Source of the DNA: Phycomyces blakesleeanus NRRL 1555(-)
Lineage: Eukaryota; Mucoromycota; Mucoromycetes; Mucorales; Phycomycetaceae
Assembly: GCF_001638985.1 (NCBI RefSeq)
Contig: NW_017265135.1
Span: 983,223 to 1,047,222 of the forward strand
Direction: 5' to 3'
DNA length: 64,000 bases
Numbering within the stretch: position 1 is the first letter of the stretch; each line of letters starts with the position of its first letter. The notes beneath the pieces were generated by a model. The model was given only the letters and a program-made list of their open reading frames with translations. It did no database searches and was not told the DNA's origin. Both the position numbers and the translations under genes were made by a program. Below are positions 6,937-62,017 of this stretch, one piece after another.

Positions 6937-9900
6937 ATGCCCCCTTCTTCTTCTCCTGCTCCCATGGGAGAACGTAAATCATCCAACATCTCCAAGTACC
7001 TCTCGGCTCTGGAAATCTTTGTCGGTGGCCCAAATGGTGAGTCTCTCTCCTGGTTGCTACATATGGATTGACTAAAAAAAGGTGTTGGTATGACTGATGA
7101 AGAAGCAATCTTGGTGGCGGCCACCCACTTCCGTGGCATGACTGCCATGTGGTGGGCCATCTGTGAGACCGAAGTCACAATGTGGGAAGTCTTCTCTGAG
7201 GAGTTCAAGAAGCAGTTTGCCTCCCGGCAGATGGAAGATGTCTGGTGGATGGAAATCGATGAAGCCAGACAAGGCTTGGGACAAACCATCGGTGAGGTGG
7301 CCCTCCGCCTGCAGGAACTCTTTGATCTGGTTGCTTTGGCCAATGAGACCCAAATAATCCGGATTTTGTTGAAGGCTCTTCATCTGGAGATTGCTTATGA
7401 GGTGGAGAAGTCTGGTCTTCCTTGCTCCTGGGACGAGTTGGTTCAACAAGCCGCCAAGGTAGAGACAGTCAAAGAGAAGTATCATCGTTCTGGTTTGCGC
7501 TCTGTCCCCGAGTTTGGTCACTTCTCCGGGCAAGGTTTGGTGTCCAAGAACTCCTTCGTGGAGGATGCTCTCTCCAAACTCATTCAAGAATTCAAATCTA
7601 TGAAGATCCATTTGGTTGACACTTGTTATCCCCTCTCTCAAACTTCCGGCTCTTCTGGATTTGGTTCGTCTGACTTTGGTGGCTCTGGTTCTAGTCCTGG
7701 TGGTTCTGGTCTTGGTGGTTCTGGTCTTGATAGTTTTGGTCCTGGTGGTTCTGGTGGTCCTGGTGGTTCTGGTGGGTTCTCTGGTTCTGGTCCTTGTGGG
7801 TCTGGTTTTGGTGGCTCTGGTCCTGTGTCTGGTTTGGCTGGCTCTTCTGGTCCTCAAACTTATTGATGTTTCTGGTGCGGGGAAGAGGGTCATATCAAAC
7901 CCGATTATCCCAAGCGTTTGAACAACAACAATGATTTGGGAAAAGGCCAAGGGCATCAGTAAGTTTTGCTGATGCCCATAATCAACCTAAGGTGTCTGTC
8001 TCTGAGGACGCTGCTATCAACATGGTTGAGACTGCTCCGGTGTATGCTGCCAAACGTGCTAGGGTGGTTGACCTGTTGTCTTCTAAGGGTCTGTATACTT
8101 GTAACAAAGGAAAGGCTGTTGACAAAACAGTACCGTTACACTCTCTCTCAAACACGCTTCCACCGCTTAAACAGCACTTATATGCACAGGGTCAGCTCAA
8201 CACTTTCCCTACCAACAATACCTATATGACTCCGGCTCTGGACCTCTCCCCTCCTGTTGGTTCTTCCCCTTTGGCCCCCAAGCCCCATCATTTGCGTCCG
8301 CCTCTGAGGGAACTCCCAGTGCACATCAGCCGCAAAGATGTCTGGGAGAGACTGAAAAGTGTGGATGCCGGTCTTCCTCTGGCCGATTAGCTCCTCTTGG
8401 ACAAGTGTGCATCCAAGGACGTCAAGGACGGGTTGCGTTTTCTATCCGGTTGGAAGTGGAAGGTCGTTGCCCCTGGGGTGAACATGGTCCAGCATCAAGA
8501 GGAGTCGTCAGATGGCGAGTCTTTCTATTTGGACGATTGGGAAACTCAGTCCCTGGAGACCAATGCAGCAAACCTGGATTGCGATAGCAAGCTCGATGGG
8601 TATGACAGCAACGACACAGTCTACAACTATCATTACAACTATAAAGACTTTGCGTCCAGTCAACCCCTGAGAGCTCCTATCACCATCAATGGTCAGATTA
8701 TCCTGGCAATCTTTGACTTGGGTGCCAGCGTGTCTGTCATCAGCAAGGCTTTGGCTCTTCGTCTCAGTTTGGTCCCCAACAGTGATCATCTGCCTCTCTC
8801 TTCCTTGGATGGTCAGGCTCATGCCCCATGCAACATAACTGTCAATGTCACAATTCGTGTCACTGGGAAACTGAGACCTGACACCATGTGTATCAAGAAC
8901 AGTGGCTCCAATCACGATCTGTGTCTCCTGGGAATGTCTTGGTTCTGAGCCTATGGTATTCACTTACGCCTGAATGATGCCTGCATTGTCATCCCCACAA
9001 AGCATGGGTTGGGTACGGTCGAGCTGCAAGGTCAGGCAAAGGATTTCGCCCCCATCTCTCTCTCTGCGCCAATCTACTCTGTCAATGTCCAAGAGGAGTC
9101 TGTCGTGGGAATAGGGCCCACGTTAAAAGATATCTGAGGTGAGGAGCAGTTGCTCGACTACGTCAAGAAAGTGCTATCAGTTTCTGAAGCTGAGGTCGAG
9201 AGTCTCCCCTCTGGGATTGCCAGTATTGTCAATGCAAATCAAGATGCATTTGTGGAGAATTCCGGTCTGGGTTGGGTCAACCTTCTGGACCATGAGATTC
9301 TGGTGTCTTCCTTGGAGCCAATTCGTTCAAGGCCATACTTCTTGACTTGGGAGGAGGACGAGTCACTGAAACATGAGTTGGATAATCTGTTGGCCTTAGG
9401 GCTTATCTGTTCTTTGCGTGGTTTGTGGACTTCTCCGGTCTTCTTCATTTGGAAGTGCAACAAGTCTCTGCGTCTGGTCGTAGATTACCGCAAGCTCAAT
9501 CAGGTCACCATCAAGGATGCTTTCCCCCTTCCACATATTGATGATCTTCTGGACTCGCTGGGTGGTTTGGTCTTTTTCTCCACTCTGAATGCAACAAGCA
9601 GTTACTGGCAGGTTCTGGTAGCAGAGGAGTCAATCAAGCACACTGGCTTTGTAACTTGTCAAGGGACCTTTCAGTTCACCGTGATGCCCTTTGGTTTGAC
9701 CTCTGCTCCGTCCACGTTCCAAAGAACAATGTCCAAGATCTTGGGGAACTTTTTGGGCGATTTCGCCTATGTTTTCATTGATAATATTATTATTTTTTCC
9801 AAGACGTTGGAGGAACATGAGACTCACCTGGGCCTGGTCTTTGAGGCATGCAAGAAAGCGAATCTCAAGCTAAAGCGTAGCAAGTGCTTTTTTGTGCAGC

Positions 9901-10040
9901 CGTTGGTCAAGTATCTCAGTCATGTTGTGTCTGGTTCAGGTCTCTCCCCATGTGCTCGCAATGTTGAGAAGTTGTTGGCTTTGGCTGTGCCTCGTAATGT
10001 GAACGAGGTCCATATCTTTCTTGGCATGGCAGGCTACTAT
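6937..10040 (+). pseudogene. Ty3/gypsy element 1, gag-protease-RT part, interrupted by CACTA insertion
   Basis: First part of a decayed gag-pol gene. Gag starts at ATG 6937; its C-terminal half is a Gly/Ser-rich low-complexity stretch (about 7640-7850) followed by a zinc knuckle (CFWCGEEGH) whose last Cys is Tyr. The protease (about 8685-8945) has DLGAS instead of DTGAS. The RT (about 9400-10040) has SPVFFIWK, VDYRKLNQVT and MPFGLTSAPSTFQ. However, motif A reads STLNATSSYW and the YxDD box reads FIDN, so key catalytic aspartates are Asn. In-frame stops are TGA at 7069, 7864, 8946 and 9135 and TAG at 8388; one frameshift lies near 7965. The gene stops abruptly after GMAGYY at 10040 and resumes in the same frame at 18859. 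It cannot make an active RT. Confidence 0.9.
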
Positions 10041-10069
10041 CACTGGAAAAATAGAGTAATTTCATCTGG
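10041..10069 (+). repeat. Left terminal inverted repeat of CACTA element
   Basis: Begins CACTGGAAAAATAGAG and matches the complement of 18827-18855 over about 26 bases with one difference. Preceded by the TAT duplication. Confidence 0.9.
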
Positions 10070-11418
10070 ATCAAATGTACCAAAAATGTAGATGATTGAG
10101 CCAATATCATCACAATTTTTGTGATATATCATTTTGAGCAATGGTACGATATCATCTATGGTGCTGATGCATATCATCATAACAACGGGTACACGAAAAC
10201 CCAATGTAGAACGATTGTCAGTCCGCAAACTATGGAAACTGAATAAATATTGTAGTTACGCTTTACTCCTATCGAGTCTACCTCTTTATGTGTTATATTT
10301 TGAGGTCTATAAAGAGCTAGCGTCCCATATTATTATTTTTACCGGTTTTTTTATTGGCTGCAGAAATGCTTTAAAAACTATCAAAGAGATGATTGTAGGT
10401 TTTTTACAATATAAAGAAATGATGATAGTTGGTTTTTTATACATGCTCAAAGTGATGAAACTAGGTTTTTTATACACACAAAAGCAATGAAACTAAGTTT
10501 TTTTACAATGGAAAAGAGAAACAAAGCATGGGTAGATTTTTATAAACAAGCCTCTTTGGTTTGTTTATTTATTTTACTTTTATTTATTTATTTTTTGGAA
10601 AAACATTGGGTTATACCTTTTTTGTTCAATTTTGTTTTATTTGATAGGAAAATCTTTTCTAGATAAAAATCCTAATTTCGCGACAGTTTTGATACTATAG
10701 CTATTATAATCGCTAATACTTCTTGCTCGCTATATATAATTTAAAGCCTTCCGGGAGTAGACATGGAATACATACTTTAATAGCGGGAATGCTATTAAAA
10801 AATGATTAATAGAAAAGAAGAATTAGTAAATGATTTAAATTGAAATTTCTTCATAAATACTTACAAGGCGGAGAAGACTTGACATAAAATTGATATAAAC
10901 ATGTTTTTCAGAATTATCAAGACAATACCAGTAGTCTTTGAATAGAGATACATTCTAAAAATGAATAATTATTAATATTGTACGTAGTAAAGGCGTATTT
11001 ATTAAATATATTGTAGTTAACTTACCAAATATTACTGATTATACGTCTTCGTGCATAATATTAGACATAACTAATAAATCATAATAAAAATAAATATATA
11101 TCTATGAGGAAGACAAAAGAATAATTTGAATTTTTTTTAAGAAAAAAACTTACCATCATGTTCGATTAAGAGATGATGAGACTCAATGGAAATGAGTAGC
11201 AATGGCTAGACAAACAATATGATGAGTAACAAAGATCTGTAAGATAATGATATCTTACCTTGATATATCAGACAGAGTATAGCCAAACAAAGAGACACAT
11301 ATTTGGTATTGAGCTATAAAAGAAAGAAAAAATTATAAGTGAAATTGTAAAAACATAAGCAAAAGAGAAACAAAGAAAATATCAATAATAAATGTTGTTA
11401 AAAGAAAAAAAAAGGAAA
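10041..11418 (+). repeat. First copy of ~1.38-kb duplicated left end
   Basis: Nearly identical to 12083-13459 from the CACTGG terminus to an A-rich tract that ends at the scaffold gap. Differences noted are mostly C/T or A/G, with a few short indels. Small open frames in it (for example 10134-10490) are repeated in the second copy but show no protein motif, and I do not regard them as genes. Confidence 0.9.
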
Positions 11419-11518
11419 NNNNNNNNNNNNNNNNNNNNNNNNNNNNNNNNNNNNNNNNNNNNNNNNNNNNNNNNNNNNNNNNNNNNNNNNNNNNNNNNNN
11501 NNNNNNNNNNNNNNNNNN
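11419..11518. other. Scaffold gap (100 N)
   Basis: Exactly 100 unknown bases, the usual placeholder for a gap of unknown size. It follows an A-rich tract at the end of the first left-end copy and precedes a minisatellite, so both gap flanks are repeats prone to misjoining. Confidence 1.
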
Positions 11519-12082
11519 TATTATATATCAGATTGGCTGTCATCTACTTATATATATACTAAATCAGCTGTCATTTACTTATATATATAGCAGATCAGCT
11601 ATCATCTACTTATATATATAGCAAATCAGTTGTCATCCACTTATATGTATAGCAGATCAACTGTCATCCACTTATATATATATCAGATCAGCTATCATTC
11701 ACTTATATATATATCAGATCAGCTGTCATCCACTTATATATATATCAGACTGGCTGTTATCGACTTATATATATAGCAGACCAGCTGTCATCCACTTATA
11801 TATATAGCAGATCAGCTATCATTCACTTATATATATAGCAGATCAGCTGTTATCTACATATATATAGCAGACTGACTGTCATCCATTTATATATATACCA
11901 GATTAGCTGTCATCCACTTATATATATATCAGACCAGCTGTCATCCACTTATATATATAGCAGATCAGCTATCATTCACTTATATATATAGCAGATCAGC
12001 TGTTATCTACATATATATAGCAGACTGACTGTCATCCATTTATATATATACCAGATTAGCTGTCATCCACTTATATATATAG
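11519..12082 (+). repeat. Minisatellite, ~30-36-bp unit
   Basis: About 17 imperfect units of the type ATCAGCTGTCATCCACTT followed by TATATATA and AGCAG. A larger block is itself repeated (the units starting near 11850 and near 11999 are almost the same). It ends directly against the extra CACTGG terminus at 12083. Subterminal tandem repeats are common in CACTA elements, but this array lies outside, not inside, the second terminus. Confidence 0.9.
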
Positions 12083-13459
12083 CACTGGAAAAATAGGGTA
12101 ATTTCATCTGGATCAAATGTACCAAAAATGTAGATGATTGAGCTGATATCATCACAATTTTTGTGATATATCATTTTGAGCAATGGTACGATATCATCTA
12201 TGGTACTGATGCATATCATCATAACAACGGGTACACGAAAACCCAATGTAGAACGATTGTCAGTCCGCAAACTATGGAAACTGAATAAATATTGTAGTTA
12301 CGCTTTACTCCTATCGAGTCTACCTCTTTATGTATTATATTTTGAGGTCTATAAAGAGCTAGCGTCCTATATTATTATTTTTACTAGGTTTTTTTATTGG
12401 CTGCAGAAATGCTTTAAAAACTATCAAAGAGATGATTGTAGGTTTTTTACAATATAAAGAAATGATGATAGTTGGTTTTTTATACATGCTCAAAGTGATG
12501 AAACTAGGTTTTTTATACACACAAAAGCAATGAAACTAGGTTTTTTTACAATGGAAAAGAGAAACAAAGCATGGGTAGATTTTTATAAACAAGCCTCTTT
12601 GGTTTGTTTATTTATTTTACTTTTATTTATTTATTTTTTGGAAAAAATTGGGTTATACATTTTTTGTTCAATTTTGTTTTATTTGATAGGAAAATCTTTT
12701 CTAGATAAAAATCCTAATTTCGCGACAGTTTTGATACTATTACTATTATAATCGCTAATACTTCTTGCTCGCTATATATAATTTAAAGCCTTCCGGGAGT
12801 AGACATGGAATACATACTTTAATAGCGGGAATGCTATTAAAAAATGATTAATAGAAAAGAAGAATTAGTAAATAATTTAAATTGAAATTTCTTCATAAAT
12901 ACTTACAAGGCGGAGAAGACTTGACATAAAATTGATATAAACATGTTCTTCAGAATTATCAAGACAATACCAGTAGTCTTTGAATAGAGATACATTCTAA
13001 AAATGAATAATTATTAATATTGTGCATAGTAAAGGCGTATTTATTAAATATATTGTAGTTAACTTACCAAATATTACTGATTATACGTCTTCGTGCATAA
13101 TATTAGACATAACTAATAAATCATAATAAAAATAAATATATATCTATGAGGAAGACAAAAGAATAATTTGAATTTTTTTTAAGAAAAAAACTTACCATCA
13201 TGTTCGATTAAGAGATGATGAGACTCAATGGAAATGAGTAGCAATGGCTAGACAAACAATATGATGAGTAACAAAGATCTGTAAGATAATGATATCTTAC
13301 CTTGATATATCAGACAGAGTATAGCCAAACAAAGAGACACATATTTGGTATTGAGCTATAAAAGAAAGAAAAAATTATAAGTGAAATTGTAAAAACATAA
13401 GCAAAAGAGAAACAAAGAAAATATCAATAATAAATGTTGTTAAAAGAAAAAAAAAGGAA
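12083..13459 (+). repeat. Second copy of the duplicated left end (extra CACTGG terminus)
   Basis: Starts with CACTGGAAAAATAGGG at 12083 and continues without a gap into the gene-bearing part of the element. Its left flank (TAG, minisatellite) does not match the TAT seen at 10038-10040 and 18856-18858. It is either a duplicated end, a nested second element, or an assembly artefact across the gap. Confidence 0.85.
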
Positions 13460-13768
13460 AAAAAAAGACTTGTCTTAAAATCCAGTTTGACCCTGACAAA
13501 ATGCGGGCTGTAAAAAGTAATACTCCAAAAGAAGATGACCACCGTCATCTTGAAATACTACTTTGTGCCTCATTGAGTTAGAAAAGAAGTTGTCTAAATG
13601 TGGATCAAGCGGTTGGGAGATGTGCTTAAATATCAAATGAAAGGTAGAGAGTTAATCTGCACCGCTTATCCTCTTTACTAGTATGTGAATTTTAAATATG
13701 ATATAACAAGTGTAGTGAATTGTACAATATTAGTTGAAAATTATTAATATTTATTTTATTAACAGAAA

Positions 13769-15107
13769 ATGACAAAGCGTATTCCTACTGCTCCCCGCCG
13801 ACCCAACCTACGCATGAATGCTGTTCTTAATAGCACAATTGCAGGTGTTGTTGCTCCAATTGATACACCAACTCCAGAAGTAGCAGTTGACACAGCCCCT
13901 GAAGTTCAAGTCGCTGTGACCCCAATGGATCACGTCCTTACCTTGTTGGCAGCCAACAATGTGTCGATGCAATCCTTGCAAGAAAATGCAAAAGGAGTGA
14001 CTGATGCAATAACTCATTTGAAGAATGGCCTGGATTTGTCCAACAAGACAAATGAATTTTTGAAGAACTCGGTCCTTCAGCTCATGACTGAAAATGCTGA
14101 AATAAAAAAGGCAATGACCAGCCAAAATTCCGTGATGCCTTCTGCTGTACCAGCGGATTCTTCTTCTTCCATGGATGATGATCTTGACCTTGGAGCGAAA
14201 CATCATCCCTTAATTTCTGTAAGTAAATTGATAATAATAACATTACTGATTAATATATCTAATACTGTTTTTATAGCAACTTATCAATAGTTACATCAAG
14301 AAACCGAACTTTGTTAGCACAGACCCGCTCAAAGTTGCTGAGAATAATAATAGATCAGCATGGTCAATGACTGGCACGTATGGCGACAAGTACAACAAGA
14401 CACTTGCACTGGCTCTCTTCAAGTACCTGAGACCTCAAAGATGTTGCACAAATGTGTCAAAGAGTGTCATTATGAATATAATAAAGAATCACTACCAAAA
14501 TCAAGTGCGAGTCTTCCGGACCTCAGCAGAGAAGATTATGGCTAGAAATAAAGCTGGAAGAAGACGCAACAGAAAGAAGACCGTAAGTTTTAAAATAAAG
14601 TTAATTTACTATTGATTTAATGTTTTAATACAATACTCTTTGGTAGCTTCTTGACCGTCGTATTATCACGTACCAGACATACACAGAGGCTATTCATGAG
14701 GGCATGAATCGATATGATTGCGGAAATATTCTTTCTATTGACGTGATGTCTGATGGCGAGTCGGATGGAGATAACAAAGTGCGGGCATATCGTCCCAGCT
14801 GGAGAACTGATGAGGTAATGTTAAACATCTATTTATGTTTTAAAGAAAATAATAATACTTTATTAATACTATTTATTCTTTAAACCAGCTCCAGACGTTT
14901 ATTAGTACTATTGATGAACTTACTGTTATCCGTTTGAAGAAAAATTCAGAAAGCTTGAAAAAGTGCATCCCTTATGAGAAAGAAGTGAGCATTCCCGAGA
15001 ATTTGGCAGTCACTACCAGATTGGTGCTTTTCAAAATAAATCATTTTTTTCTTGCCAACTATTTTAGAGTCTTTTTTCTACTTGTTTATGTTTACGGATT
15101 AGCATGA
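13769..15107 (+). CDS. CACTA accessory coiled-coil protein (TnpA-like by position), four exons
   Basis: Second gene of the CACTA element. Exons by consensus splice sites and matching phase: 13769-14218, 14277-14582, 14647-14814, 14889-15107 (introns 58-74 nt), about 380 residues. The N-terminal exon is Pro/Val-rich, followed by a heptad-like region (LLAANNVSMQSLQENAKGV onward to about residue 120) expected to form a coiled coil. Exon 2 ends in a very basic tract (ARNKAGRRRNRKK) suited to DNA binding. No stop interrupts it. I do not recognise a named domain. In plant CACTA elements a second protein binds subterminal repeats, and by analogy this may be the end-binding partner of the Tnp2 encoded next to it; that is inference. 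The last exon's hydrophobic C-terminus may be an artefact of a missed splice. Confidence 0.7.
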
Positions 15108-15246
15108 TGTATACAGATGCATGTATAGCATGCCAAGTACAAACAAAAATTTATAGAAATAATAAAAAATAAACGTGCAGCTATATATATTAGTCTGTAT
15201 TAATTAATATTTCTTTTTTATACGTGTTTTATTTTTGTATTTGAAT

Positions 15247-18200
15247 CTAAATATATATTTTTCGTGGCAAAGGAACTACACACATCTGAACTTCGCCTTC
15301 TAGACCAAGGTGCTCGCCTACTGCGACTGGATAGCAGATTCTATGCACTGGGAGAATGCTGTTCATGCTGTCATCTTCGAACCCCACCTCATTCACCTCA
15401 ACTCCTTCTCCTGCTCTGGGCTGAAGTAAAACTTCCTTGTACCATCGTACATATGCAAATACATGCTGACTCGCATGACCAGCAAACGAGTTTACAGCAG
15501 TATTGACAAAGAGGTACTGAATTTGGCCCGCGTATGGCTTGGTACTTCTACCATCACTTGTCTCAAACAAGGCTTGCATGAACGACCCACACTGATTCTT
15601 CGTTTTGCTCTTGTAGATTTGCCCAAGAAGATTGATTGATTCAAACTTCTGTATCCGATTGTTAACAAAATTATCGGAATGACCAGCCTGACGATAATGA
15701 ACAAGAGTTTGATCATCGTATGTCTTGCGATAGTATTCCAACAAATGCTCATACTCGGATTCATCCATGGAAATCTCCCCCTTTAGAGCTAAAGGAAGTG
15801 CGGAAGGGGGCAAAGGCTCGTTTCCCTTGACGATATCAAAGTTGATCTCAGGAGAATCAAGAAAAGCATTGATATCGAATTGGATTGAGGTGGCAGTGGA
15901 AGTGGAAGTGGCTATGGAATTGGCAGTGGATGCAGTGAGCTCAAGGATGATTGCCAAATGCTCAGGTCGAATTATTGGCAAAGTTTGGCGAATAAGATCT
16001 CTCTGGTATGCTTCTTCAAGATACTTCTTCATATAGATTCCCTCAAACCCGTCTTTTCTATTTGTCGCATAGTTTTTCAAGATACCATTGCATCTTTCGA
16101 AACTAAAAAGCCAATAGCCATAAACCGGGCCAAAGTTCAGTACAGTCTCTCGCAGATGAAGATGGAGATGCATGTTTGGCGAAAGGAATGGGGCTTTATA
16201 CAACTTCTCGCACTCTCTGCAGAAAGCCTCCAAAGATTGATGGGCTTCATCAAGGTGAGCCATGGATATGCTTGGCATTGAGAGGTACTGGCATGCATTG
16301 ACAAACGTTGTCCAGTTACCGAGATGAGCTTCAGGTAGACGACCACGCAGGAGAACAGGAGAGTACACCAAGCACCAAGACTTCCACTCGTCGGCCTTCA
16401 TGAATGGGAAGCCACGCCCGATCTTTGTCCCTAATGGCGTGTAGTCCTCTGGCAGTACAAGCTTGTCAGCATCCAACTGCATTTCGGCCAAGTGTGCATC
16501 TGTGATGAGACCTGAAGATCTCCATTTCTCCATTATCCTCTTTGCTGTTCCGAGGTACAGGTTGTGCATCGGATCGATGACAGTGCACTCCACGAGGTTA
16601 AAGTAAACCAGGTCATGCAATTCTGACCATCGGACACCATTTTCCCTCTCCAATCTCTTTCTCTGTGCATCACTGCTGGCCATTCTCCACAACTCAGCAT
16701 CACGGCGGTTTTCGGCATCAGTGCGAGGCACCCACTCAGAAAACACGAACCCAGAGTAGTCCACAGCATTGGAGTCTGGAAGGCGAGGGAACTGTCGGTT
16801 GCACTTATTGCATGCACATGTGCTTGAATGAGAGGTGAACCCACAAGTCTTACGGGCAGCAGGAATGTCGCAGGCAACAAGAAGAAGGGCAGCACAGACA
16901 AGAGCACCAGATGGGCACTGTACGGTAGGCATCACCACACCGCCATACAACTGGTTGAGTTCCGCGACAAGGGGACGGAGGTAGTGATTGATCTCACTTG
17001 TCTTTGCTTCCTTGGGCCCTGGCATGAGACCAACGAGAACAACATTCTCCTTCTTGTACCGTTCCGATCTTGGCAAGTTGTTGATGCAAAGGTATATCGC
17101 ACCACAGGAGTAAGTGACCCCATCGAAAGGTTGAAACCAATCGATGTTCATGGTAAGCATTATGGAGCGCTCATGATTCACAAACGGTAAACCATTGCTA
17201 TCCTTCAGACTGTTCCACTTCGTACCGTCGTAAATGTCAAACATCATGCCTGGAACTTGCACTCTGATTCTCCAATGGTTGATGGTGTCTTCGAATCCAG
17301 GGCGGCAAAAAGGATAGACAATGTTTTGATTATGGAGTTATACATGTAGATCTTTTTGGGAATAGTCAAGGCTCTTGATGTTGCAAAAGAGCATTTTCAC
17401 ATTCTCTACCAGAGAGTCTCTCGAAATTACAGCACTCTGGAACAACATCGGACTCTTTGTATACTTTGTTACAATTGCCACATGCAATAAACCGCTGGAC
17501 ACCTCGAGTCACGTCGCTGAGACCGGTCATAGAGTTGACACCGCTTATACTGAGGGGAAGACGGAAAGACTGTCCAAAGTGTGCCAATACTTCGTTAAGA
17601 AACTTTAACAGAACAGCACCACCAGAATTGACAACATATTTGGATATGAAGAAGGCAGCAAAAGAAGCAATGAAAGCATGAGTAGGATCGACTGGCATAT
17701 TGGATGAAGAAAAGTGCTCTATTTGAAAAAAAAATCAATACTTGTTGACTTTATTGATTTATATGTGCTTTTTGTACTAACCTCTAACATCATCAGATTC
17801 ATTGTCAGAAATATCCAAAATGGTTGCTTCAATGACACCCTCATCTTCGCTTTCAGAATCAAACAAGGAATCAATGCCAAAAAGAGGTAAGTCTTCGGCT
17901 GTTTTGTTAGGTAAAAAAGAATCAAATTATTAGATATTATAAATGATTATAAAACTTTAATAAAAATACTATGCATACCTTCAACTTGATCTTCGGCATC
18001 AACATTGTATTCAAAGTCAATCTCCATGTCATTGTCATTCGACATTACTTCTATAACTGAGGCTATATTATATGAAAATAAATATTTAATTAAAATTGTC
18101 TCAATAATAATTTTCTTAAATTTGAACTTACAAGAAGATCCTGACTGATATTGTCTCACGATATCCTGTTGTGCATGTCTTCTGAGTGTTTGGGTAGACA

Positions 18201-18273
18201 CCAAAACAAATCCCATGCTATTGGAAGAGCATTTAGAGCACTTGCATTCTGAATTGTTGTTGTTGTTTGACAT
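15247..18273 (-). pseudogene. Tnp2/CACTA-type transposase, copy 2, two frameshifts
   Basis: Transposase gene of the CACTA element. Exons: 18132-18273, 17979-18062, 17782-17899 and 15247-17718. The start MSNNNNNSECKCSKC resembles copy 1 (Cys-rich head, acidic linker). The long exon has MNIDWFQPFDG, VVLVGLMPGPKEA, VACDIPAARKTCGF, a CACNKC knuckle, VIDPMHNLYLGTAKR and LFSFERCNGIL, and is open for about 670 codons from 17262. Between 17300 and 17400 the reading frame shifts twice, at a T4 run (17394-17397) and an A5 run (17307-17311), with an in-frame TAA near 17340 in one frame. Comparison with copy 1 shows that the coding alignment continues across both shifts, each equal to one lost base. So this is a recent pseudogene or an intact gene with homopolymer errors. 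Confidence 0.85.
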
Positions 18274-18826: not shown

Positions 18827-18855
18827 ATAGATGAAATTACCCTATTTTTCCAGTG
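18827..18855 (-). repeat. Right terminal inverted repeat of CACTA element
   Basis: Complement starts CACTGGAAAAATAGGG; followed by TAT at 18856-18858. Defines the right border of the insertion. Confidence 0.9.
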
Positions 18856-18858
18856 TAT

Positions 18859-50112: not shown

Positions 50113-50191
50113 ATAAATAGTATAATAAAGTTTTATATTAGAAAAGTGCAAAAAAAACCATTTTATTCATCAGAAAAATTATATTCTTCAT

Positions 50192-53139: not shown

Positions 53140-53141
53140 GT

Positions 53142-53415
53142 AGCAATTATTCCTTCCCTATTTTGGTTTGACAGTCTCACCAAATTTTGGGAGAGCTTTG
53201 GCTTGACCTATAAATTCACTGGATAGACTGTCGAATAAAAATAGGGGAGGAATAATTCACTCACCTTCCCTCATCTGTAATGACCAGCATATGATCAAAG
53301 AACAATAATATGTTTTACTTAGATTTTAAAAAACCTATTTTTTGCTATTTTAAATAAAAGACGATTACTAGCAATTATTCCTTCCCTATTTTGATTTCTC
53401 AGTCTATCCAGTGAA
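53142..53415 (+). repeat. DIRS-end inverted repeats (three related ~36-45-bp arms)
   Basis: Arm 1 (53142-53177, AATTATTCCTTCCCTATTTT...), arm 2 in reverse (53215-53260, CACTGGATAGACTG...) and arm 3 in the same sense as arm 1 (53371-53415). Arms 1 and 2 can form a hairpin with a ~45-bp loop, as can arms 2 and 3. DIRS elements typically carry inverted and internal complementary end sequences, so this probably is the right end region. Confidence 0.7.
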
Positions 53416-53422
53416 GTTTGAA

Positions 53423-53947
53423 ATGAAGACACAGATTGAAAAGTTAAAGTTGGAGATCACTACTCTCAAGAATCAACCAGAAACTCAAAATACTCTAAAC
53501 TAAGACACTTTGCCTTCTGTCACAACCATTGTAAGTCAAAAATAAAATAATGTAAGTATATATTAACATCTTATTTAATAGTCAGATGGTAATTATATTC
53601 ATAAATCTGTGGACAATTTGCATAACATAACTTTGATGCTTATTTTCAAAATTATAAGTGAATATCTTATCGTTGAAGTAACCAGTCATGTAAAAGCCAC
53701 ACTCACTTTGATCACAAAGTTAATATGTGATGATATGACTGCCTATCCTTTGGTGATTGCTCTTGGTCATAACCTTAGCTGGAGGTCTATACCAGTAGCA
53801 GTTAAGAAAGAAATGTGTGTAAGCCACGCAAGTATAATAAAGGATTCTGATATAGACTTCACCAGACATCTTGGAAACTGAGCATAAACTGCAAGAGTTG
53901 CTTTTCTCTGGAGACATTTCCATGGAAGATTGCAGTCTTATAAGTAA
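53423..53947 (+). pseudogene. Small coiled-coil protein, family A second copy
   Basis: Paralogue of 23387-24039. MKTQIEKLKLEITTLKNQ is the coiled-coil end of exon 1, then a TAA; an intron with a proper GTAAGT donor and TTTAATAG acceptor (about 53551-53581) follows. Exon 2 reads LICDDMTAYPLVIALGH, LSWRSIPVAVKKEM and RHLGN, then TGA where the first copy has Trp, another stop, and TARVAFLWRHFH to 53947. The N-terminus is shortened. It lies directly beside the DIRS end and 1.5 kb before a Tnp2-like gene. Function unknown. Confidence 0.6.
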
Positions 53948-55451
53948 TCAAAATGCAATGGGATTGAATAGGATAATATACTTTAAAAACATAGAAGATC
54001 AAATGTTTTAATTACCAATAAAAGCATCTATTTTTTTGCATTAATAACTAATAAAATAAGTAATAAAAGCTACCTCTTCTTGTATAAGCTAATAAAATAA
54101 ATTTAAAAAAGCTATTTTTATAAAAACAACCAATAAAAATTTGTATTTATTAAAATGAGCAAAAATATTGTTATACTTGACAGTCATATAAATTTTTATA
54201 AAACAAGTCCTATCAAAAACACATCATTAATCTCAGGAGCTAATGATAAATAGAAACCTGAGAGTAAAAGAGCCTTATAAAAAAGGCATAACTGTCATAG
54301 TTAGAACACCATCTTAACCAATACCAACTTTCTCTTTTTTTCTCTCAATAAAATCATTATACAGTCAAAGCTCGATATAATGATATTTGATATACACCAC
54401 AGCGGATTTTTTTGTGTAATCTTGTTCCTTAAAAGGATTCTTGTATATGAAGCGAATTTTGCCCATAACAGGAAATTCATTTTTTGGGGGACTGAAAAGT
54501 GGGGGGATGGGGGAACTACTCTTGGCCAATAGATTTCGATTAAAAAATATACTGCACAATTTCAAAAATGGTTCAAATTTTTAATTTGTTTCAAATAATT
54601 TTGGGCTGTAAAAAATTTATTTTTTATTTTCAAAAAAAATTAAGCTAAAAAAAAAGCTAGACTGGACCATAAAATTCACAGGTAGTAGCACACCAGTATA
54701 TCCATACCACTAGAAACACTAGTAGTATTGCTGTTTGTATTTGTGCCTGTAAATTACGCAATTGGTTTGCTACAAACTACTATGTCTAGCTAATCCAAGA
54801 GACCTAGTGCCAGAAATACCAATAAACCCAAAGAGCATAAAGATTTGAATTTCGAGAAAAGCTAAAGCAGAAGAACTAATAATTAGTAACTAAACTTAGT
54901 TATATATATTTAACAGAATTTTATCTTTGACTCTATTAAGGTATTTGCAATAAAAGGCAACCAAATCTCTGCAAGTGAGAAGTAAATAGTTAGTCTTCTG
55001 TTGCTTTGTAAGAGGAACATGTAGTTATTACCTCTTTATTGATTTACCAAGATGATGAAAAACTAATTTATAAACTAGAATTGTATGATTAATAAACACA
55101 ATGACATAAAAAACTGATAGTATAAATACCTTTGAGCTTATGATCTTTAAACAAAATTCTGCTTCTATAAATACTATAAACATACTGGAATATCTTACAG
55201 ATAGAAGCTCATGCAAATAATAAATATTTTGTGGAAAAGTAAAATGAAAAAAAAGACAAAAACACGTGATATTTTCTTAAAAGAAAAGAAGTAAAAAAAT
55301 TCTAATTGGTCCGCTGACATTAAATATTGATCTTTGCACATTTTATAAATTCAATTATTTTCACAAAGTCATTTTACCCCCTTTGTTTTTACAATTAATT
55401 TACTATTATGCAAAAGAATACAAGACAAAAAACATATAAAATTGTTAAGAC
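53948..55451. other. Non-coding; contains a CAGTCAAAGC-type terminus at 54362
   Basis: 54000-54150 repeats the YMAATARAA motif array seen after 24040. At 54362 a sequence CAGTCAAAGCTCGATATAAT preceded by TA matches the ends of the MITE at 63412. It could be the left end of an element that includes the gene at 55452-58415. No gene recognised in the rest. Confidence 0.5.
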
Positions 55452-58415
55452 TTGCCCCCTAAAAGGCAAGGCGAACTTAACTTTAGCATCAATTCAGATG
55501 TTTTTATCTGCTCTAAATGTGAAAAAGAGTTTGAAAAGCCTTGGTTACTGAAAAAGCATTTGAAGGTTCACCATATAAGTAATCAAATGGCAACTAATAC
55601 TATACTCGACAAACCCCAGCAGGCCAAATTGATAGTTGAGAACACTATTCTGGATGCTAATGCATTTGATTACTTGAGTGACAAAGATGACTCCTCCAGT
55701 ATCGGGAATGAAGAAGACAACATTGTAGACAAGGAAAACAATATTGTCAATAATTTCTTTGATATTGAAATGAACAGTAATCCAGTTTTCAACGCATTCT
55801 CTGATATGTTTTCTTCTGTTGCTGCTGCTGATGAGGTATCAATGACTGATGATGACTCTGAGATCCCAAAAGAAGTCTTTGAGACAATTGTCACTGTAAA
55901 TGACTCTACAAGCTGTTATCCTTTTCGCAATCTTCAAACCATGATCCTTTTTGCTTTTATTGATGGAGATAATGACATGATCTCCCAGCAAATGTTGAAG
56001 AAGATACTGCTTGTGATGAACTTGATCATTGAGATCCAGCAAGAAACTCCCATAGGAAGAACATTTAAGTTACCTCGTTTGGATACTCTTTTAAATTATC
56101 AGGCAAGAAAGAAGTCCAAGATGCCTGTCTTTCCTTCACAAAGAATATCAGTACCTGGATCAAATGGGAACGCATTCACCCACATTAACCTTCCATCCGA
56201 CCACTTGAGATTTCTTATGGCAAACCCAAAGAAATCCAAGTTGATCTTGTCCATGCCCAATCGTACCCCAAACCAATCAATCTGTTTGGAGCAAGGTGAA
56301 AAGTGGAGAACCCACCATCTCTTTCAGCAGCCTATGCACACTGTAAATGGTATAGATGTCTGGTTTGGAAACATTGTTTACTTGAAGACAAACGATTGCA
56401 GCATCCGCTTTTTGATTGAATCATTCCACATGGCAAATAAAAACATTTTTGTGAGAGGGTATCTGGTCAGAGCGATTTTGATTGTATGCTATGGCATTGA
56501 GGTTGCTGTTACCAATCTTAGAGTAGAGCAGATCTCTCACGTTGACACCACTCCTGTTGAAAGAGATCACTACTACAGTATCTCAAGTAGCCTTACCAGA
56601 TTGAGTCCTGCTCATGACTTTCTTCTTTTTGGAGTTCATCCAATGAAGAAGCCTATGTCTCTTTCTGTTTTGCCTGGTAATGTAGATCGCGATACAGTAT
56701 TTTACAAAGTTAGGATTGTTTCAATCATCCTTTTTACAGACAGCACTTCCGGCAATTGTTCAAAGCAGTACAATCCGTTTGAAAGCTGGTTAGTGAGATG
56801 TGCTGCCTTGCCTTTTAAGGATCGAAATTCGATAGCAAACATTCAGTTTCTTTCTACAATCCCTAAGAAAGATGGTGAAAATGGTATGTCTCTTCTGCCA
56901 GCAATCGTTGATGACTTTAAGAAACTCGAGAAAGGTGTAAAAATGTTCTCTGCTGAAGACAATGAGTATATTCTGGTTGTTGCTCCCATCCTTTGGATTG
57001 AGGCTGACACACCATGTCATTTGGAACTATGCGGATTGCTTGGGCCGGCCACCACATTTCCTTGCAGAAGATGCTACATTGAACTTAGACGTGCAAAAGA
57101 CTTTGTGAAGGACTTGTCCTACTTCCGTGAGTGCCATGAGAGACGAACTCAAGAGCACTATGTTCTTGCAAACTCGTCATCTGGCAGAGACACTGAGATC
57201 CCAAATGCTCTGAAAATTGGAATGAGCACGCCTGCAAACAAGATAAGCTTTAGAGATCATTTGACTGGCCGCTTATTAGAATTACAGTTGTTTGATCCAG
57301 AAAAGAATACATCAGTGGAAATCCTCCACACAATACTTCTTGGTGTTGCAAAGTATATGGTGATTGACTTGGTTAAGGTCATGCTTAAGAATGACACAGC
57401 CACAATAGCAAGACTTTCAGAATTCTTGACAGATTACACACAATCAACTGGTCTATCAAGAAAGTTTACCCAAAACTTGAGACATAGTGATTCATTCCTT
57501 GGTAGAGACTTCAAGGTTTTGCTTCAAATACTTCCTGTAATTCTGATTACAGAATTCTCTGGAAATCATGAGCTAGATCTTGTAATACCATGCTTTGTTG
57601 AACTTGGTCAATTGTGTTCTCTGGTATTCGTTTGTCAGGTGACATCAGACTTTGATAACTATATTATCAGAATAGATAATGCAGTGAAGCACTTGATCAG
57701 AGCATTGTTTGACTACAATAAAGGAACCAAGAACGAGCTCCACAAGGCGTATTGCACCAAGTCAAAAGTTCATTACTTGACACATCTCAAGGAAGATATA
57801 ATTCGTTTTGGTCCAGCCCTCAATTATGAAACAGAAAAGGGCGAACAGTTCAATAAGCACATTTGCAAACATCTGTTTCATAAGAATTGCCAAAACACTT
57901 CCAGAAATGTTTGCCTAAAGTTTGCAAAGCAGATAGCATTGCAACATGTAATTGACGGTGGGTCATGAATTAATAGCTCTGGCAACCGAGAGAAGTCTGG
58001 AACTGGAATAGAGAGGTTCATTAAAGACAACAATAAATCCTTGTTCTATTACACCTCCTTTGGTGGCTCAAGAGAGCTAAAGGACAACAATGACACTGGA
58101 GATATTGAAGATGACACCATCCAAAACAACAGTTTTGGCACGTTTGTTTTTAGAGATGATCCAATCTCTTGCCCTTGTATAAGACTTGTCTCAGGCTCTG
58201 TTGTTAAGTTTCTTAGCATTGTTCCTCGTATGGATAATGATAAAAACAATAACTATGCCAAGGCTGTAATAACAGGTGAGCATTCTTATGTTGCTAACAT
58301 AAATCTCATTTGTAAGTTAGATTTGCACATTTTCTGCAACCCATTTTACATTGTAAATTTGAGCAAGTTTGGTTCCTACTGGTTCATTCCCAATAATCTT
58401 CTTTTTGATAAATAA
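55452..58415 (+). pseudogene. Large C2H2 zinc-finger, Tnp2-like transposon protein
   Basis: One frame of about 988 codons. N-terminus: a C2H2 finger (FICSKCEKEF..., HLKVHH) at residues 18-40. Acidic linker, then a long domain with TDSTSGNCSKQYNPFESW, ILWIEADTPCHLELCGLLG, CRRCYIEL, SVEILHTILLGVAKY and YETEKGEQFNKHI. A family with this motif order is widespread in fungi. Its HT.LLG..K box resembles the DPMHN..LG..K box of Tnp2, so I infer a distant CACTA relation. TGA at 57966-57968 sits where relatives often have Trp after Gly-Gly; the frame continues to 58415. The natural start seems lost: codon 55452 is TTG (TTG CCC CCT AAA) just after a TAA, and the next in-frame Met is at 55587, past the finger. 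Confidence 0.7.
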
Positions 58416-59316
58416 AATGATGCTACTTCTTTATTATTATTATAATTATTATTTGAACCTTCTGTTTTCTTCTTCTCAACATCAATTTTTTTGTGTAATT
58501 TCTGTGAAGTCATTTTTTGGTTACTCAAACCAATCCCCAACTTTCCTTAATAAATCCTTTGTCTCACTTGAACACTTTCTGACTTCTCTAACAGTTTTTT
58601 TTCTTACTTTAAAAGTCCACAAGTAGTACTGAACTTAATTTTATTCTTTATTTGGATGAAAAAAATTGAGTACAAAAACAAATTACAATATTTTGGTCTC
58701 TAAGCCAATCATATTGCTTAGGTGCCAATTTTCATCTAAAATGATATGAAAAATCTCTGATGGTATAGTGATAATTGCGATATAGTGATAATTTTTTGGA
58801 AAATTTAGGCCCGTGCCTGCTTATTATCACTATTTTTTAATATAGTGATAGTAATAAAATTTGAATCCACCAGTATCACTATATCGAGCTCTGACTTTAT
58901 TTATATACTATAAAAAATAAATGTAATATATATTTTATTTAGTATTTTAAAGCAAGTTTACTTTATTAGACAAAATACTATGAATCCTATTAGAAAACAG
59001 TAGTCACTTACAGCAGCATTAGAAATATCACTAAATAATGCATAAAGTAAGAAAAACACACATTTGATATAGTGATAGTAATAAAATTGTGAGCGTGCTG
59101 GTTAGCCTTTCCGTTACACTAGTAGATATTCAATTAGAACTAACTAGGTGTTCAATGAGGGTGTGATTATAAGGGTTTTTAAGATAGAAACAATTATATA
59201 GAATTTGAGAATCAAGGTGTAAGATAGTATTTTTTTCATGTTATTTGCCTTTGCTTTTATATTGTTTCTATCCTATTTTTTACATCATTGTTTTATCATT
59301 TTCTAAGGTTTGCTAA
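58416..59316. other. Non-coding; internally rearranged MITE-like repeat at ~58745-59110
   Basis: 58745-59110 aligns with the interior and right half of the MITE at 63412-63719 (shared AGAAAACAGTAGTCACTTAC-type blocks and ATAGTGATA repeats), but the terminal CTTTGACTG end is missing or degraded (CTCTGACTTTA near 58896). No gene. Confidence 0.55.
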
Positions 59317-59550
59317 GAGCATCCACAGTGATATGTGAGAAATAAATGTGTATTTTGGAATGAAAAAACAAATTTAATATAGAAATTTCAATCCAACCAC
59401 ATTGGTTTTGCCAAACTAAATATTTCATGACTTTTCTAATGTTAGAATTGAAATATTTCTATCAGCAACATATAAACATTTCAAATATCAATCTTAAATC
59501 AAATGTTTCTTTCTTAATATTATCAAAATACAAATAAAATCTTATATGCC

Positions 59551-60986
59551 ATGAGTGCTGATCAAAATACAATCAATCTGAACGAAGACTCTGATATCAA
59601 AGAATACAAGTACTTTCTCAACAATCCAGTTGTAGATTTTAGATTATTTGATTACTTGTATGATGATAAAAAAGAGGAAGCAAGACGTACAGCAAATAAC
59701 GTATTTTTGTTGAACAATTTAGATGCAATTATGCCTTCAACTCGGACGAGTATAAACAGAGGATGTATTGAAGGCAATGAAAGATTGTATTCTGACTATT
59801 TTGCTGCAGATCCTGTCTACAACAAGAAAATCTTCGAAGAAGGTTTAGAATAAGACATGGTCTTTTATTCCAGGTCTGTGAAGGAGTAAATAACCAAGAC
59901 TCCTATTTTGTCCAAAAAAGAAATGCTTCTGGAATACTTGGATACTCAACATTCCAAAAGGTTACCATTGCACTGCGTATGCTCTGCTATAGAGTGTCCG
60001 CCAATTCACTTGACAAATATCTGAGAATGAGCAAGACTGTTGCCTTAAAAAGTATGAAACTCTTTTGCAAGACATTGACAGCTGTATTTAGAGATGAGTA
60101 TCTTAGAAGGCCGAATCAAGCAGATACAGATTGGATACTGGCAGTTGGTGCCAAAAGAGAGTTCCAAGAGATGCTAGGATCTATAGACTGTATGCATTAG
60201 GCCTGGAAAAACTGCTCAACGGCTTGGCATGGCCAGTACACTGGCCATAAACATGAGCTAACTTTGATTCTTGAGGCTATTGCTTCTCAAGACTTCTGGC
60301 TGTGGCATTCATACTTTGGGCTCCCTGGCAGCCATAATGATATTAATGTTCTTGATCGATCTGATGTCTTTCAAGAAGTCACTGAAGAGACAGGTTCTGT
60401 TGTGTATTACAACATTGGAGGCAAAACATATGACATCGGATACTATCTGGCCAATGGAATTTACCTAAGCTATGCAACATTGATAAAAACCATGTCAAAT
60501 CCCATACTAGCAAAGGAAAAGATAACATATATTTGTGTATTCTTATATTTATTCTTATCTTTACTAAAATTTGCTACTTCAAATTTTATAATCTAGCTGT
60601 TTGCTCAAAAACAAGAGGCCACAAGAAAAGATGTTGAACGGGCTTTTGGAGTACTGCAGGCTAGATTCAACATTGTCAAGCTTCCTACAAAGCTGTGGAG
60701 AATTACAGACTTAAATATGATAATGAAACCATGTATCATATTATATAACATGATAGTGAAAGACGAACGTGGCGTAGATGGCCTGGACATGGTCTATGAA
60801 CAAAGCTTGGCAGCAATGACATTATCAGACAGAGCTAGTAGAAGAGCGACTAGTGAAGACGTTACCAGAGGAAGCTTTTCTGAATTTGTCACAAGATATT
60901 GTGAAGTTACAAGCCGAATCAACTATGCCGAGTTAGTAAAAAGCCTTGTGAATAACTTGTGGAGTATGGCAGGAAATAATGAATAA
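59551..60986 (+). pseudogene. Harbinger-type transposase (PF04827-like), copy B
   Basis: MSADQNTINLNEDSDIKEYK start, SINRGCIEGNERLYSDYF, then a one-base loss at 59833-59834 (TTCGA; copy A has TTTTGA) that shifts the frame. Coding resumes as VCEGVNNQDSYFVQKRNASG, SLDKYLRMSKTV, LGSIDCMH (Asp 1), TAG at 60198 replacing the family Trp, AWKNCSTAWHGQYTGHKH, GSHNDINVLDRSD (Asp 2), DIGYYLANGIYLS; intron 60537-60596 (60 nt); LFAQKQEATRKDVERAFGV (Glu), CIILYNMIVKDERG, and an end at 60986. The family occurs in plants and fungi. Two lesions make it inactive. Confidence 0.9.
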
Positions 60987-61034
60987 ATAAAGTGTAATAA
61001 AGTTTTATGTTAAAAAAGTGCAAAAAAAAATATT

Positions 61035-62017
61035 TTATTCATCAGAAAAATTATATTCTTCATCACTTTGAAGCTCTTCAACTTCTTCTTCTTCATCATC
61101 ACTACTCTCATCCTCATCTTCAAAACCCCTTTCTATTTCTTCTGCTTGGCGCAGGGCTTGCTTTTGCTTCAAGAGAACACAGCAGCGTCTTACTGGATTG
61201 CTGATAGTGTCTGCATCCATCATGATATACTTCATGTCCAGCATCTCTCTGAAATTTTTGTCCTTTCCACTACCAGAACGCTGGGCTTTTCTTTGATCAT
61301 TCACCAGATCAAAAAGAGCCTCCTGGACCTTTCTCTTCCCCTGGGATCCGGCCTTGCTTTGTTTGCAACCTATTGGATGGACAATCTCTTATTGAGAAGA
61401 CATTTCATTGTTTCCCTGAACATTCCCACTGGACGGAGTGATTGACACAACAATCTGGCTTCTGTTTTCTTGTCCTCTTGTTGAACCTTCTAAGCCGTTC
61501 ATTCACTTGGGAGCAAGAGAAAGGACGGAGTAGCAATGATCCAAGTTAAATGTCTTGTTGTTTTGGACCTTGAACAGGATTCTTGCTTCAGAAATCTAGT
61601 TTTTGTATATATAGAGATTAGACATCAATAATAAATTAACCAAATTTTTAACTAGGATATTACCATATCTAGGACATTGGCCCCACTTTGATTGCGTCAC
61701 TCAACTTGAGCCACACAGCCACAAAACTTTGCTACTTTACTTTGTATATGATTCCAGCAGGATGTCAAAGAACTAGTAGAGCGGAACATACAGCTTGGAT
61801 CGATGTTTTCAAGATAGTGCAATCCAATTCTTTTCTACATAGTAATACCCCTTTGATCTTTTCCCGTTATTGCGTCTTGAGAAATAGCCAGCCACGACTT
61901 ACAAAGCTGAATGTCCTTCAAGTAGTTCTAATTGGCATTACGGCCACTGGTAGATGTGGAAACAGGTTCACTCGAAGAGACATTGTCAGTGGAGGATTGG
62001 AAAATATTGCTGTTCAT
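61035..62017 (-). pseudogene. Harbinger ORF2 of element 2, SANT-like with NAM-associated-type C-terminus
   Basis: ATG at 62017 (MNSNIFQSSTDNVSSSE). The SANT-like core reads DIQLCKSWLAISQDAIT, KRIGLHYLENIDP and CWNHIQSKVAKFCG, the pattern of plant Harbinger/Pong ORF2 and related proteins. A GT-AG intron lies at about 61594-61668. Exon 2: ARILFKVQNNKTFNLDHC, then VHPIGCKQSKAGSQGKRK, and an acidic tail (EDEDESSDDEEEEVEELQSD) ending at 61035. In-frame stops: TAG after GRNAN, TAG after GITM (a Trp position in relatives), TGA after AQVE, TGA after LAPK, TAA after MSSQ. It would bind DNA together with the convergent transposase; not functional here. Confidence 0.8.

Follow-up and report, generated by a model that had tools for sequence, protein, structure and literature searches.

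In a stretch of 64,000 nucleotides of the genome of Phycomyces blakesleeanus NRRL 1555(-), called here the window, the genes of unrelated transposable elements (TEs) are broken by nonsense codons among which TGA prevails, and it may be asked what process has produced them. The initial annotation suggested either a RIP-like process or deamination of 5mC. In our opinion, with a probability of about 0.88, the TGA-rich stops result from methylation-linked CpG decay in this fungus of the Mucoromycota and not from a RIP-like machine. The 5mC half of that suggestion agrees with the CpG context, the CpG depletion and a predicted DNMT1 gene, and the RIP half disagrees with the context, the TpA/ApT index and the share of TGA.

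Table. Repeated elements of the window, with coordinates, strand and the evidence for each
Feature	Coordinates	Strand	Evidence
gypsy 1 LTR retrotransposon (gag, protease, RT), upstream part, decayed	6587..10046	+	Pfam; alignment with relatives L068 and L069
tnp2-type (Transposase_21) DNA transposon inside gypsy 1, young copy	10047..18862	-	break in gypsy 1 homology; Transposase_21 6.2e-15
gypsy 1, continuation past the insertion	18863..19464	+	88% identity to L068
Repeat copy, family unnamed by Pfam, pairs with 53412-54158	23505..24251	+	72.8% DNA identity; tblastx 1e-70
gypsy 2 LTR retrotransposon, LTRs of 397 bp, 98% alike	37912..43442	+	LTR pair; Pfam
PIF/Harbinger-type transposon copy, decayed, several TGA	48013..50191	+	Plant_tran 3e-26
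Decayed partner of 23505-24251, TGA at 53879	53412..54158	+	DNA identity, tblastx, codon alignment
Zinc-finger ORF, multicopy family, weak tnp2 resemblance	55449..58415	+	own-genome matches
Second PIF/Harbinger-type copy, partner of 48013-50191	59315..61063	+	Plant_tran 1.1e-40; 94.5% identity over 1485 bp

The Pfam matches of gypsy 1 are Retrotrans_gag (2.5e-4, below the curated cut-off), gag-asp_proteas (5.9e-9) and RVT_1 (2.1e-27), and its first position marks where an open frame starts and is no mapped end of the element. Four TGA and two TAG had been ascribed to it. Six stops agree with this tally (7864, 8388, 8946, 9135, 10089 and 10122), of which those at 10089 and 10122 fall in the tnp2-type element interrupting gypsy 1, whose homology ends at 10046 and restarts at 18863. 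Before the break there are TAG at 8388, TGA at 8946 and 9135 and an uncertain TGA at 7864, whose counterpart is not clear (one relative is gapped there and the other has a cysteine codon); these relatives, 80% and 72% identical, are too distant to show the direction of change. The transposase ORF of the inserted element occupies 15247-17337 on the minus strand. Its family comprises 44 matches listed (40 scored of 373 candidates), and 37 of the 44 extend over about 2 kb at an identity of at least 93%, both counts including the window copy.

Both TGA reported for gypsy 2, an element with gag, protease, RT, RNase H, integrase and chromodomain matches, proved to be CpG transitions: an arginine codon stands opposite the stop at 40229 in 10 of 10 other long copies and opposite that at 40634 in 9 of 10. 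The two LTRs differ at just 8 listed positions, which is indecisive for the mutation spectrum. The TGA of the zinc-finger ORF, at 57966, faces a tryptophan codon in four of five other copies; 46 matches of this family are listed (40 scored of 83 candidates), 28 of them of full length, the window copy included. Among the paralogue pairs said to preserve the original codon, tryptophan TGG at 23971 against TGA at 53879 and arginine CGA at 59835 against TGA at 48961 are as described, and a Pfam search of 23282-23647 and 23674-24039, in the region of the first pair, gave no match. The homology of a third pair, 63750 and 31552, is unsupported, the best match being 35% over 37 aa on the opposite strand with an E value of 0.005. 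Nor is every TGA a C-to-T change: when the part 48707-50191 of the first Harbinger copy was aligned with five other copies, its TGA aligned to 59919 faced AGA in the four other copies with letters there, i.e., a transversion.

The dominance of TGA extends far beyond the window. Among 150 scored RVT_1 matches (of 444 candidates), 43 carry at least one in-domain stop, with 47 TGA, 2 TAG and 9 TAA in total, and 107 are stop-free, many of these lying in frames that stay open for about 1200-1600 aa. Stops were found in 16 of 150 scored Transposase_21 (tnp2) matches (558 candidates), namely 14 TGA, 4 TAG and 1 TAA, whereas matches to kinase genes of the same genome (123 scored of 489) contain 27 TGA, 30 TAG and 63 TAA among the rows listed, the latter stops being taken to be mostly intronic. 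The differences from kinases are significant (p 9e-13 for RT, p 1e-5 for tnp2), the tallies being counted by eye and taking in copies related by descent. The TGA excess among TE stops is thus real and genome-wide. The premise that random stops should favour TAA did not hold, since a null of uniform one-step change in three window ORFs gives 29-42% TAA, 37-47% TAG and 21-26% TGA; TGA is nonetheless in excess over it.

What such a mix indicates can be calculated. Mutation in the CpA context, as in RIP, predicts about 2% TGA, and the spectrum measured here, with rates rounded by hand and mainly from zinc-finger copies, predicts 54-62%. Because CpA mutation yields TAA and TAG, fungal repeats rich in TGA point to CpG change and not to RIP. 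For Tnp2, the predicted TGA/TAG/TAA shares of 0.58/0.30/0.12 fit the 33/17/4 stops observed in 15 copies (p 0.58). The divergent copy L056 and L063, whose profile equals that of L062, were kept in this tally and in the pooled Tnp2 context counts and left out of the strand, CHG, stop-mix and burst tests. RT stops, 81% of which are TGA, lie above the prediction from Tnp2 codons (p 6e-5) or gypsy 2 codons (p 1e-4).

The alignment of copies proposed in the annotation revealed an excess of C-to-T over transversions that is strongest at CpG. The comparison covered 15 of the other listed Tnp2 copies, five of the 27 zinc-finger copies that are of full length besides that of the window, and 11 long gypsy 2 copies, window copy included. 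Direction was read from young-to-old copy pairs, selected ones in gypsy 2, and most CpG sites of Harbinger and Tnp2 vary in more than one copy. From L082, a CpG-rich zinc-finger copy with an open frame, to the window copy, C-to-T changes amount to 76/228 (33%) at CpG, 15/418 (3.6%) at CpA, 21/231 (9%) at CpC and 7/375 (1.9%) at CpT, as against T-to-C at 15/1707 and transversions at 7/2959 (0.24%). From the window Tnp2 copy to the 15 others pooled, cells that share ancestry and hence are non-independent, the corresponding values are 560/2188, 203/5150, 175/3263 and 70/4011, with T-to-C at 226/16671 and transversions at 143/31283. From the CpG-rich Harbinger copy L046 to the 59-kb window copy they are 25/78, 25/246, 14/121 and 11/212, with 20/1090 and 26/1747. 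C-to-T singletons among the gypsy 2 copies, the outlier L024 kept, are 50/1531, 42/5965, 24/3079 and 20/4685.

Young-to-old, CpG is thus the most mutable context of C in the four families examined, with CpC usually second. A factor of 3-21 separates CpG from the other C contexts. It exceeds CpA 4- to 11-fold in zinc-finger and pooled Tnp2 copies, and only about 3-fold in Harbinger, where transversions are commoner. In the former two sets, change per site at CpG is 22-51 times as frequent as T-to-C and 65-171 times as frequent as transversion. Harbinger singletons show no lead of CpG over CpC (4/126 vs 16/478), and Tnp2 singletons offer no scorable CpG column, as CpG sites struck in more than one copy are not singletons. 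Non-CpG C-to-T also exceeds T-to-C, as in gypsy 2 (86/13729 sites vs 33/21034). Tnp2 CpG change, with L056 left out, mildly favours TCG (280/839) over GCG (59/377). No excess of CHG over CHH was found (75/1029 vs 397/3765, no site entering a set more than once; p 0.006 in Tnp2 with CHG lower, p 0.38 in zinc-finger copies), and CHG methylation of the plant CMT type was rejected on this ground.

CpG is also depleted in the window. In a comparison with DNA outside it, CpG o/e was 0.46 in the window and 0.69 pooled over 12 unselected stretches, a control for CpG o/e alone. These stretches were picked by round coordinates without a repeat filter, and at least two of them match a repeat over a short length. 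They range over 0.49-0.82, and 21 of the 32 bins of the window fall below that range. In Tnp2 and zinc-finger copies, CpG o/e falls from 0.64-0.86 in young ones to 0.26-0.46 in old ones (0.86 in L082 and 0.34 in the window copy of the zinc-finger family), the divergent L056 (0.69) being an exception among the old. For TpA/ApT the window gives 0.81, which is below the 0.88 of unselected DNA.

Changes at CpG fall on both strands alike. C-to-T and G-to-A counts are 78/114 and 84/114 in zinc-finger, 66/73 and 70/73 in Tnp2, and 34/136 and 33/135 in gypsy 2, with 25/136 and 18/135 in a second gypsy 2 lineage. No strand bias was found in any of the 17 copies tested (p at least 0.11), nor were strand runs beyond chance, save in L060 (p 0.02, uncorrected). 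Both cytosines of one CpG are almost never struck, TpA being observed 10 times against 117 expected in the 17 copies. Strand symmetry and single hits fit a symmetric mark at CpG that is lost gradually. In the ratio of private CpG to other changes, no difference among copies was found (p 0.59 and 0.65, the Tnp2 test having low power with its 19 private CpG events).

A profile search with PF00145 gave five matches at four loci of the genome. One of them, on C6, has two BAH domains and a methylase domain, closely preceded by a DNMT1-RFD match in the same orientation, and is a predicted DNMT1-type methyltransferase, which would maintain symmetric marks at CpG. The loci on C12 and C2 we take to be DNMT2-like by their motifs, and the fourth locus is on C3. 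The homologue search that had been called for yielded, besides this DNMT1 gene, three other methylase loci; as to RID, the table of PMC7862722 lists for P. blakesleeanus one DNMT1, one Dim-2 and two DNMT2, with no RID and no DNMT5. According to the parts of Lax et al. 2024 (PMC11258239) drawn on here, wild-type NRRL1555 carries 5mC almost only in repeat-rich regions, at levels of 3.4% in CG, 0.5% in CHG and 0.9% in CHH, and its TEs are enriched in CG and CHH methylation but not in CHG, with which the absent CHG excess in C-to-T agrees. The opinion that such a process is not well described for early-diverging fungi is only partly right, CG methylation of Phycomyces repeats being already in print; of its mutational footprint, no report was found in searches of an open-licence full-text library. 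In those parts of PMC11258239, mutation is not treated, and RIP occurs once, in the title of a reference.

Classical RIP, i.e., RID-dependent, repeat-sensing mutation of C to T, mainly at CpA, in the sexual cycle, would account for the C-to-T excess in repeats and for the higher mutability of CpA than CpT in Tnp2 (0.039 vs 0.017). It is hardly credible as the main source here, given the lead of CpG over CpA, a TpA/ApT index that is not raised, the wrong share of TGA and the persistence of two identical, CpG-rich zinc-finger copies, L082 and L083; in addition, RID is missing from the cited table, and Venice 2020, as cited in PMC8647823, found no RIP signatures in Mucoromycotina. An active CpG mutator directed at repeats and working in bursts, RIP-like without RID, e.g., a deaminating methylase, would explain the very high ratio of CpG change to transversions, and the mild TCG preference of Tnp2 is the context of the C-to-T bias in Microbotryum TEs (PMC4352252). 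This remains improbable, since strand bias is absent, strand runs stay at chance level except in L060, TpA is scarce, private ratios show no difference among copies, and the identical CpG-rich copies exist along with long open RT frames.

Ordinary AT-biased mutation, equal in all DNA of an AT-rich genome, agrees with the non-CpG C-to-T excess in gypsy 2, but the hotter CpG, the higher CpG o/e of unselected DNA and the kinase-gene stops devoid of TGA bias make it very improbable. The chance that TGA encodes an amino acid here, and thus is not nonsense, is negligible: TGA does break otherwise open frames, but it stands opposite both arginine and tryptophan codons, and most scored RT matches are stop-free. 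Equally negligible is APOBEC-like editing of single-stranded cDNA; it would give C-to-T in retroelements, but the same pattern occurs in DNA transposons, and C-to-T and G-to-A are alike at CpG.

Methylation-linked CpG decay, the reading preferred here, may be pictured as follows. Repeat DNA of P. blakesleeanus carries 5mC enriched at CpG, as published, and the window copies are presumably methylated too, DNMT1 probably maintaining the mark. By established chemistry, a methylated CpG would deaminate to TpG or CpA. Arginine CGA turns into TGA via a CpG transition, and tryptophan TGG via CpC. Copies no longer transposing shed CpGs singly, on either strand, and a repeat-sensing mutator is not required.

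It is rather unlikely, in our estimate, that a further process, independent of RID, accelerates C-to-T change in Mucoromycota repeats where CpG is methylated. This idea rests on the CpG-to-transversion ratio of 65-171, reached despite a TDG-like glycosylase gene. In vertebrates, the ratio is roughly 30, lower than here, which speaks against simple CpG decay. The acceleration might come about through inefficient or suppressed repair of T:G in heterochromatin, or through a deaminating methylase. An explanation of the high CpG rate by a lost T:G glycosylase gene was rejected, a TDG-like gene being present in the genome by sequence.

As to known systems, the TEs of Microbotryum likewise show C-to-T at CpG together with a DNMT1-class methylase (Masc2/DNMT1) and no RID, a signature for which Amselem et al. 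2015 (PMC4352252), as far as used here, favour methylation followed by deamination. Phycomyces differs in belonging to Mucoromycota, in its mild TCG preference only, in measured signs of gradual decay, and in a second gene of the DNMT1 superfamily (listed as Dim-2 in PMC7862722) plus DNMT2 genes. Lax et al. 2024 studied the same species and measured the 5mC mark itself, whereas its presumed mutational footprint is measured here. With RIP of Ascomycota, as outlined in PMC7862722 and PMC4352252, the fungus shares repeat C-to-T change that breaks TE genes, but the change is at CpG and not CpA, RID is unlisted, the process is gradual, and the two identical CpG-rich duplicates survive. Human CpG depletion by 5mC deamination (described in PMC13297926) shares the conversion of CpG to TpG/CpA and strand symmetry; in Phycomyces, depletion is strong in the repeat-rich window and mild in the 12 unselected stretches.

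A claim of RIP in an early-diverging fungus is thereby replaced by a tested account of CpG decay. A presumed footprint of CpG methylation becomes readable from raw sequence. In it CG is far ahead, CC and CA follow, CT comes last and CHG does not exceed CHH, a ranking consistent with the published methylome contexts. The link between a DNMT1-class methylase, missing RID and a CpG signature is widened from Basidiomycota to Mucoromycota. If the RID-independent acceleration were true, CpG methylation would also serve to mutate transposons slowly and irreversibly. The data suggest that a fungus without a listed RID still loses its transposon genes irreversibly through methylation.

The prevalence of TGA and TAG among transposon stops, noted in the initial annotation, holds in the whole assembly of Phycomyces blakesleeanus NRRL 1555(-) (53.5 Mb, 60 contigs), and the stop bias is a true, genome-wide pattern. 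The window covers positions 983223–1047222 of contig C2. In domain searches counted by hand from the match tables, 150 RVT_1 (RT) matches were scored out of 444 candidates; 43 of them had a stop, and together they contained 47 TGA, 2 TAG and 9 TAA. Transposase_21 matches (150 of 558, 16 with a stop) contained 14, 4 and 1, versus 27, 30 and 63 in protein kinase genes among the matches listed, where stops are taken to be mostly intronic. With stops common to related copies counted repeatedly, RT differs from kinases at p 9e-13 and tnp2 at p 1e-5.

Some individual assignments did not survive. Two of six stops that fit the tally for the retrotransposon gypsy 1 (10089 and 10122) lie outside it: similarity to gypsy 1 breaks off at 10046 and is picked up again at 18863, with a tnp2-type transposase in between. 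Homology of the supposed pair 63750/31552 is not supported by tblastx. The cases of the gypsy 2 retrotransposon, the zinc-finger ORF and the pairs 59835/48961 and 23971/53879 stand. In the 48-kb Harbinger copy, the TGA that aligns with 59919 is a transversion relative to AGA in all four other copies with sequence at that position.

Alignment of copies, the proposed check of a RIP-like or deamination signature, revealed a C-to-T excess over transversions, CpG being the most affected context in gypsy 2 and in the young-to-old comparisons of the zinc-finger, Harbinger and Tnp2 families. In gypsy 2 (11 copies including the window's, aligned in three pieces), C-to-T made up 136 of 220 changes in columns with one deviating copy, at 3.3% of CpG, 0.78% of CpC, 0.70% of CpA and 0.43% of CpT. 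Between the young window Tnp2 copy and 15 older ones, the respective values were 25.6, 5.4, 3.9 and 1.7%, with T-to-C at 1.4% and transversions at 0.46%. The window zinc-finger copy differs from the CpG-rich open-frame copy L082 at 141 positions, 119 of them C-to-T (33.3% of CpG changed, transversions 0.24%), and three further old copies show the same pattern. From a CpG-rich Harbinger copy (L046) to the 59-kb window copy, the values were 32% (CpG), 12% (CpC), 10% (CpA) and 5% (CpT), with transversions at 1.5%; the order is that of the other families, the contrast is weaker, and in Harbinger singletons alone CpG is not ahead of CpC. When every site is counted a single time, change at CHG (7.3%) does not exceed that at CHH (10.5%). 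Outside CpG, CpC (175/3263) and CpA (203/5150) exceed CpT (70/4011) in Tnp2 and also in zinc-finger copies (L053–L067, L082–L086), perhaps a trace left by CHH methylation through a second DNMT1-superfamily enzyme. In Tnp2 (L053–L067), C-to-T change mildly favours TCG (33%) over GCG (16%), which resembles the trinucleotide preference reported for Microbotryum; in gypsy 2 this bias is weak.

CGA becomes TGA through a CpG change, and TGG does so through a CpC change on the opposite strand; TAA and TAG arise from CAA, CAG and TGG by CpA changes. For the codons of three open ORFs, the predicted TGA share is 2% under CpA-type RIP, 27–33% under flat C-to-T change and 54–62% under the measured spectrum, its rates rounded by hand mainly from zinc-finger copies. 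The 15 Tnp2 copies contain 33 TGA, 17 TAG and 4 TAA, most commonly from CGA to TGA (19/54); the measured spectrum fits this mix (p 0.58), uniform mutation is rejected (p 6e-10) and the RIP prediction does not fit. RIP as the general explanation was likewise rejected, since CpG is hotter than CpA, its 2% prediction conflicts with the TGA excess, and the classic index TpA/ApT is not raised (window 0.81, 12 control stretches 0.88). RT stop counts go beyond what Tnp2 (p 6e-5) or gypsy 2 (p 1e-4) codons predict, to which the codon content of RT and descent shared among copies probably contribute.

CpG observed/expected was 0.49–0.82 (pooled 0.69) in the controls, 2.5 kb each and taken at round coordinates, 0.68–0.77 at four methylase loci and 0.46 in the window, where 21 of 32 2-kb bins fall below 0.49; the young tnp2 element and part of gypsy 2 are among the bins with the mildest depletion. 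The search for DNMT and RID homologues yielded five PF00145 matches at these four loci. The gene on contig C6 is of DNMT1 type, with two BAH domains and a methylase domain; it matches DNMT1 structures at 1e-52, and a DNMT1-RFD match lies just upstream on the same strand. That on C3 appears DNMT1-like by sequence, and those on C12 and C2 are presumably DNMT2-like, judging by their motifs. A putative TDG-like thymine glycosylase gene is also present. The four loci fit a review's table (PMC7862722), whose entry for the species gives one DNMT1, one Dim-2, two DNMT2 and neither RID nor DNMT5.

The hit pattern across copies fits slow accumulation. In 17 old copies (13 Tnp2, 4 zinc-finger), TpA from both cytosines of one CpG occurred 10 times against 117 expected under independence, so a hit on one cytosine spares its partner, in keeping with a target that is a symmetric mark and vanishes together with the CpG. 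No strand bias was found in any of the 17 (p 0.11 or more), and strand order is random except in L060 (p 0.02, uncorrected). Private CpG/other ratios do not differ among copies, with no more than 19 private CpG events in the Tnp2 test. Copies hit per CpG in the zinc-finger family approximate independence with a somewhat broader distribution.

The zinc-finger ORF (55449–58415), named a C2H2 zinc-finger transcription factor in public records, has at least 28 full-length matches including itself; two of the five copies compared are identical, CpG-rich and open. A weak Transposase_21 match in its open part (E 0.061, residues 466–545) suggests that it is perhaps a tnp2-like transposase mistaken for a host gene. 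Together with a Harbinger copy about 0.9 kb away it occupies 55449–61063, and members of the two families adjoin again at C2:1173591–1179194, possibly through segmental copying or as a composite unit; among the matches listed, no other copies of these families are adjacent to each other.

Further features of the window
Feature	Position	Orientation	Remark
Young tnp2-type element	10047–18862		about 8.8 kb, nested in gypsy 1
Repeat at the tnp2-type element	10038–11418, again at 12080–13460		98.7%
31-bp minisatellite	11488–12172		between the two repeat units
Further gypsy 2 LTR copy	36288–36678	inverted	just upstream of full gypsy 2
tRNA-Lys gene (ctt)	5754–5826	minus	in transposon-rich window

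CpG methylation of repeats, followed by deamination, best accounts for the stop pattern. Of the two processes initially suggested for this early-diverging fungus, 5mC deamination is supported by CpG context and depletion, and RIP is not. Lax et al. 2024 (PMC11258239) report for wild-type NRRL1555 that 5mC is almost confined to repeat-rich regions (CG 3.4%, CHG 0.5%, CHH 0.9%), with TEs enriched for it in CG and CHH contexts and not in CHG. Amselem et al. 2015 (PMC4352252) link CpG signatures in basidiomycetes with Masc2-type DNMT1 without RID, and Dallaire et al. 2021 (PMC8647823), citing Venice 2020, state that RIP signatures are absent from Mucoromycotina; our result agrees with all of these. 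Searches of an open-licence library turned up no report that quantifies CpG decay in the repeats of Phycomyces. The CpG rate in repeats is very high; the kind of process is already known, and the novelty lies in the lineage and the measurement.
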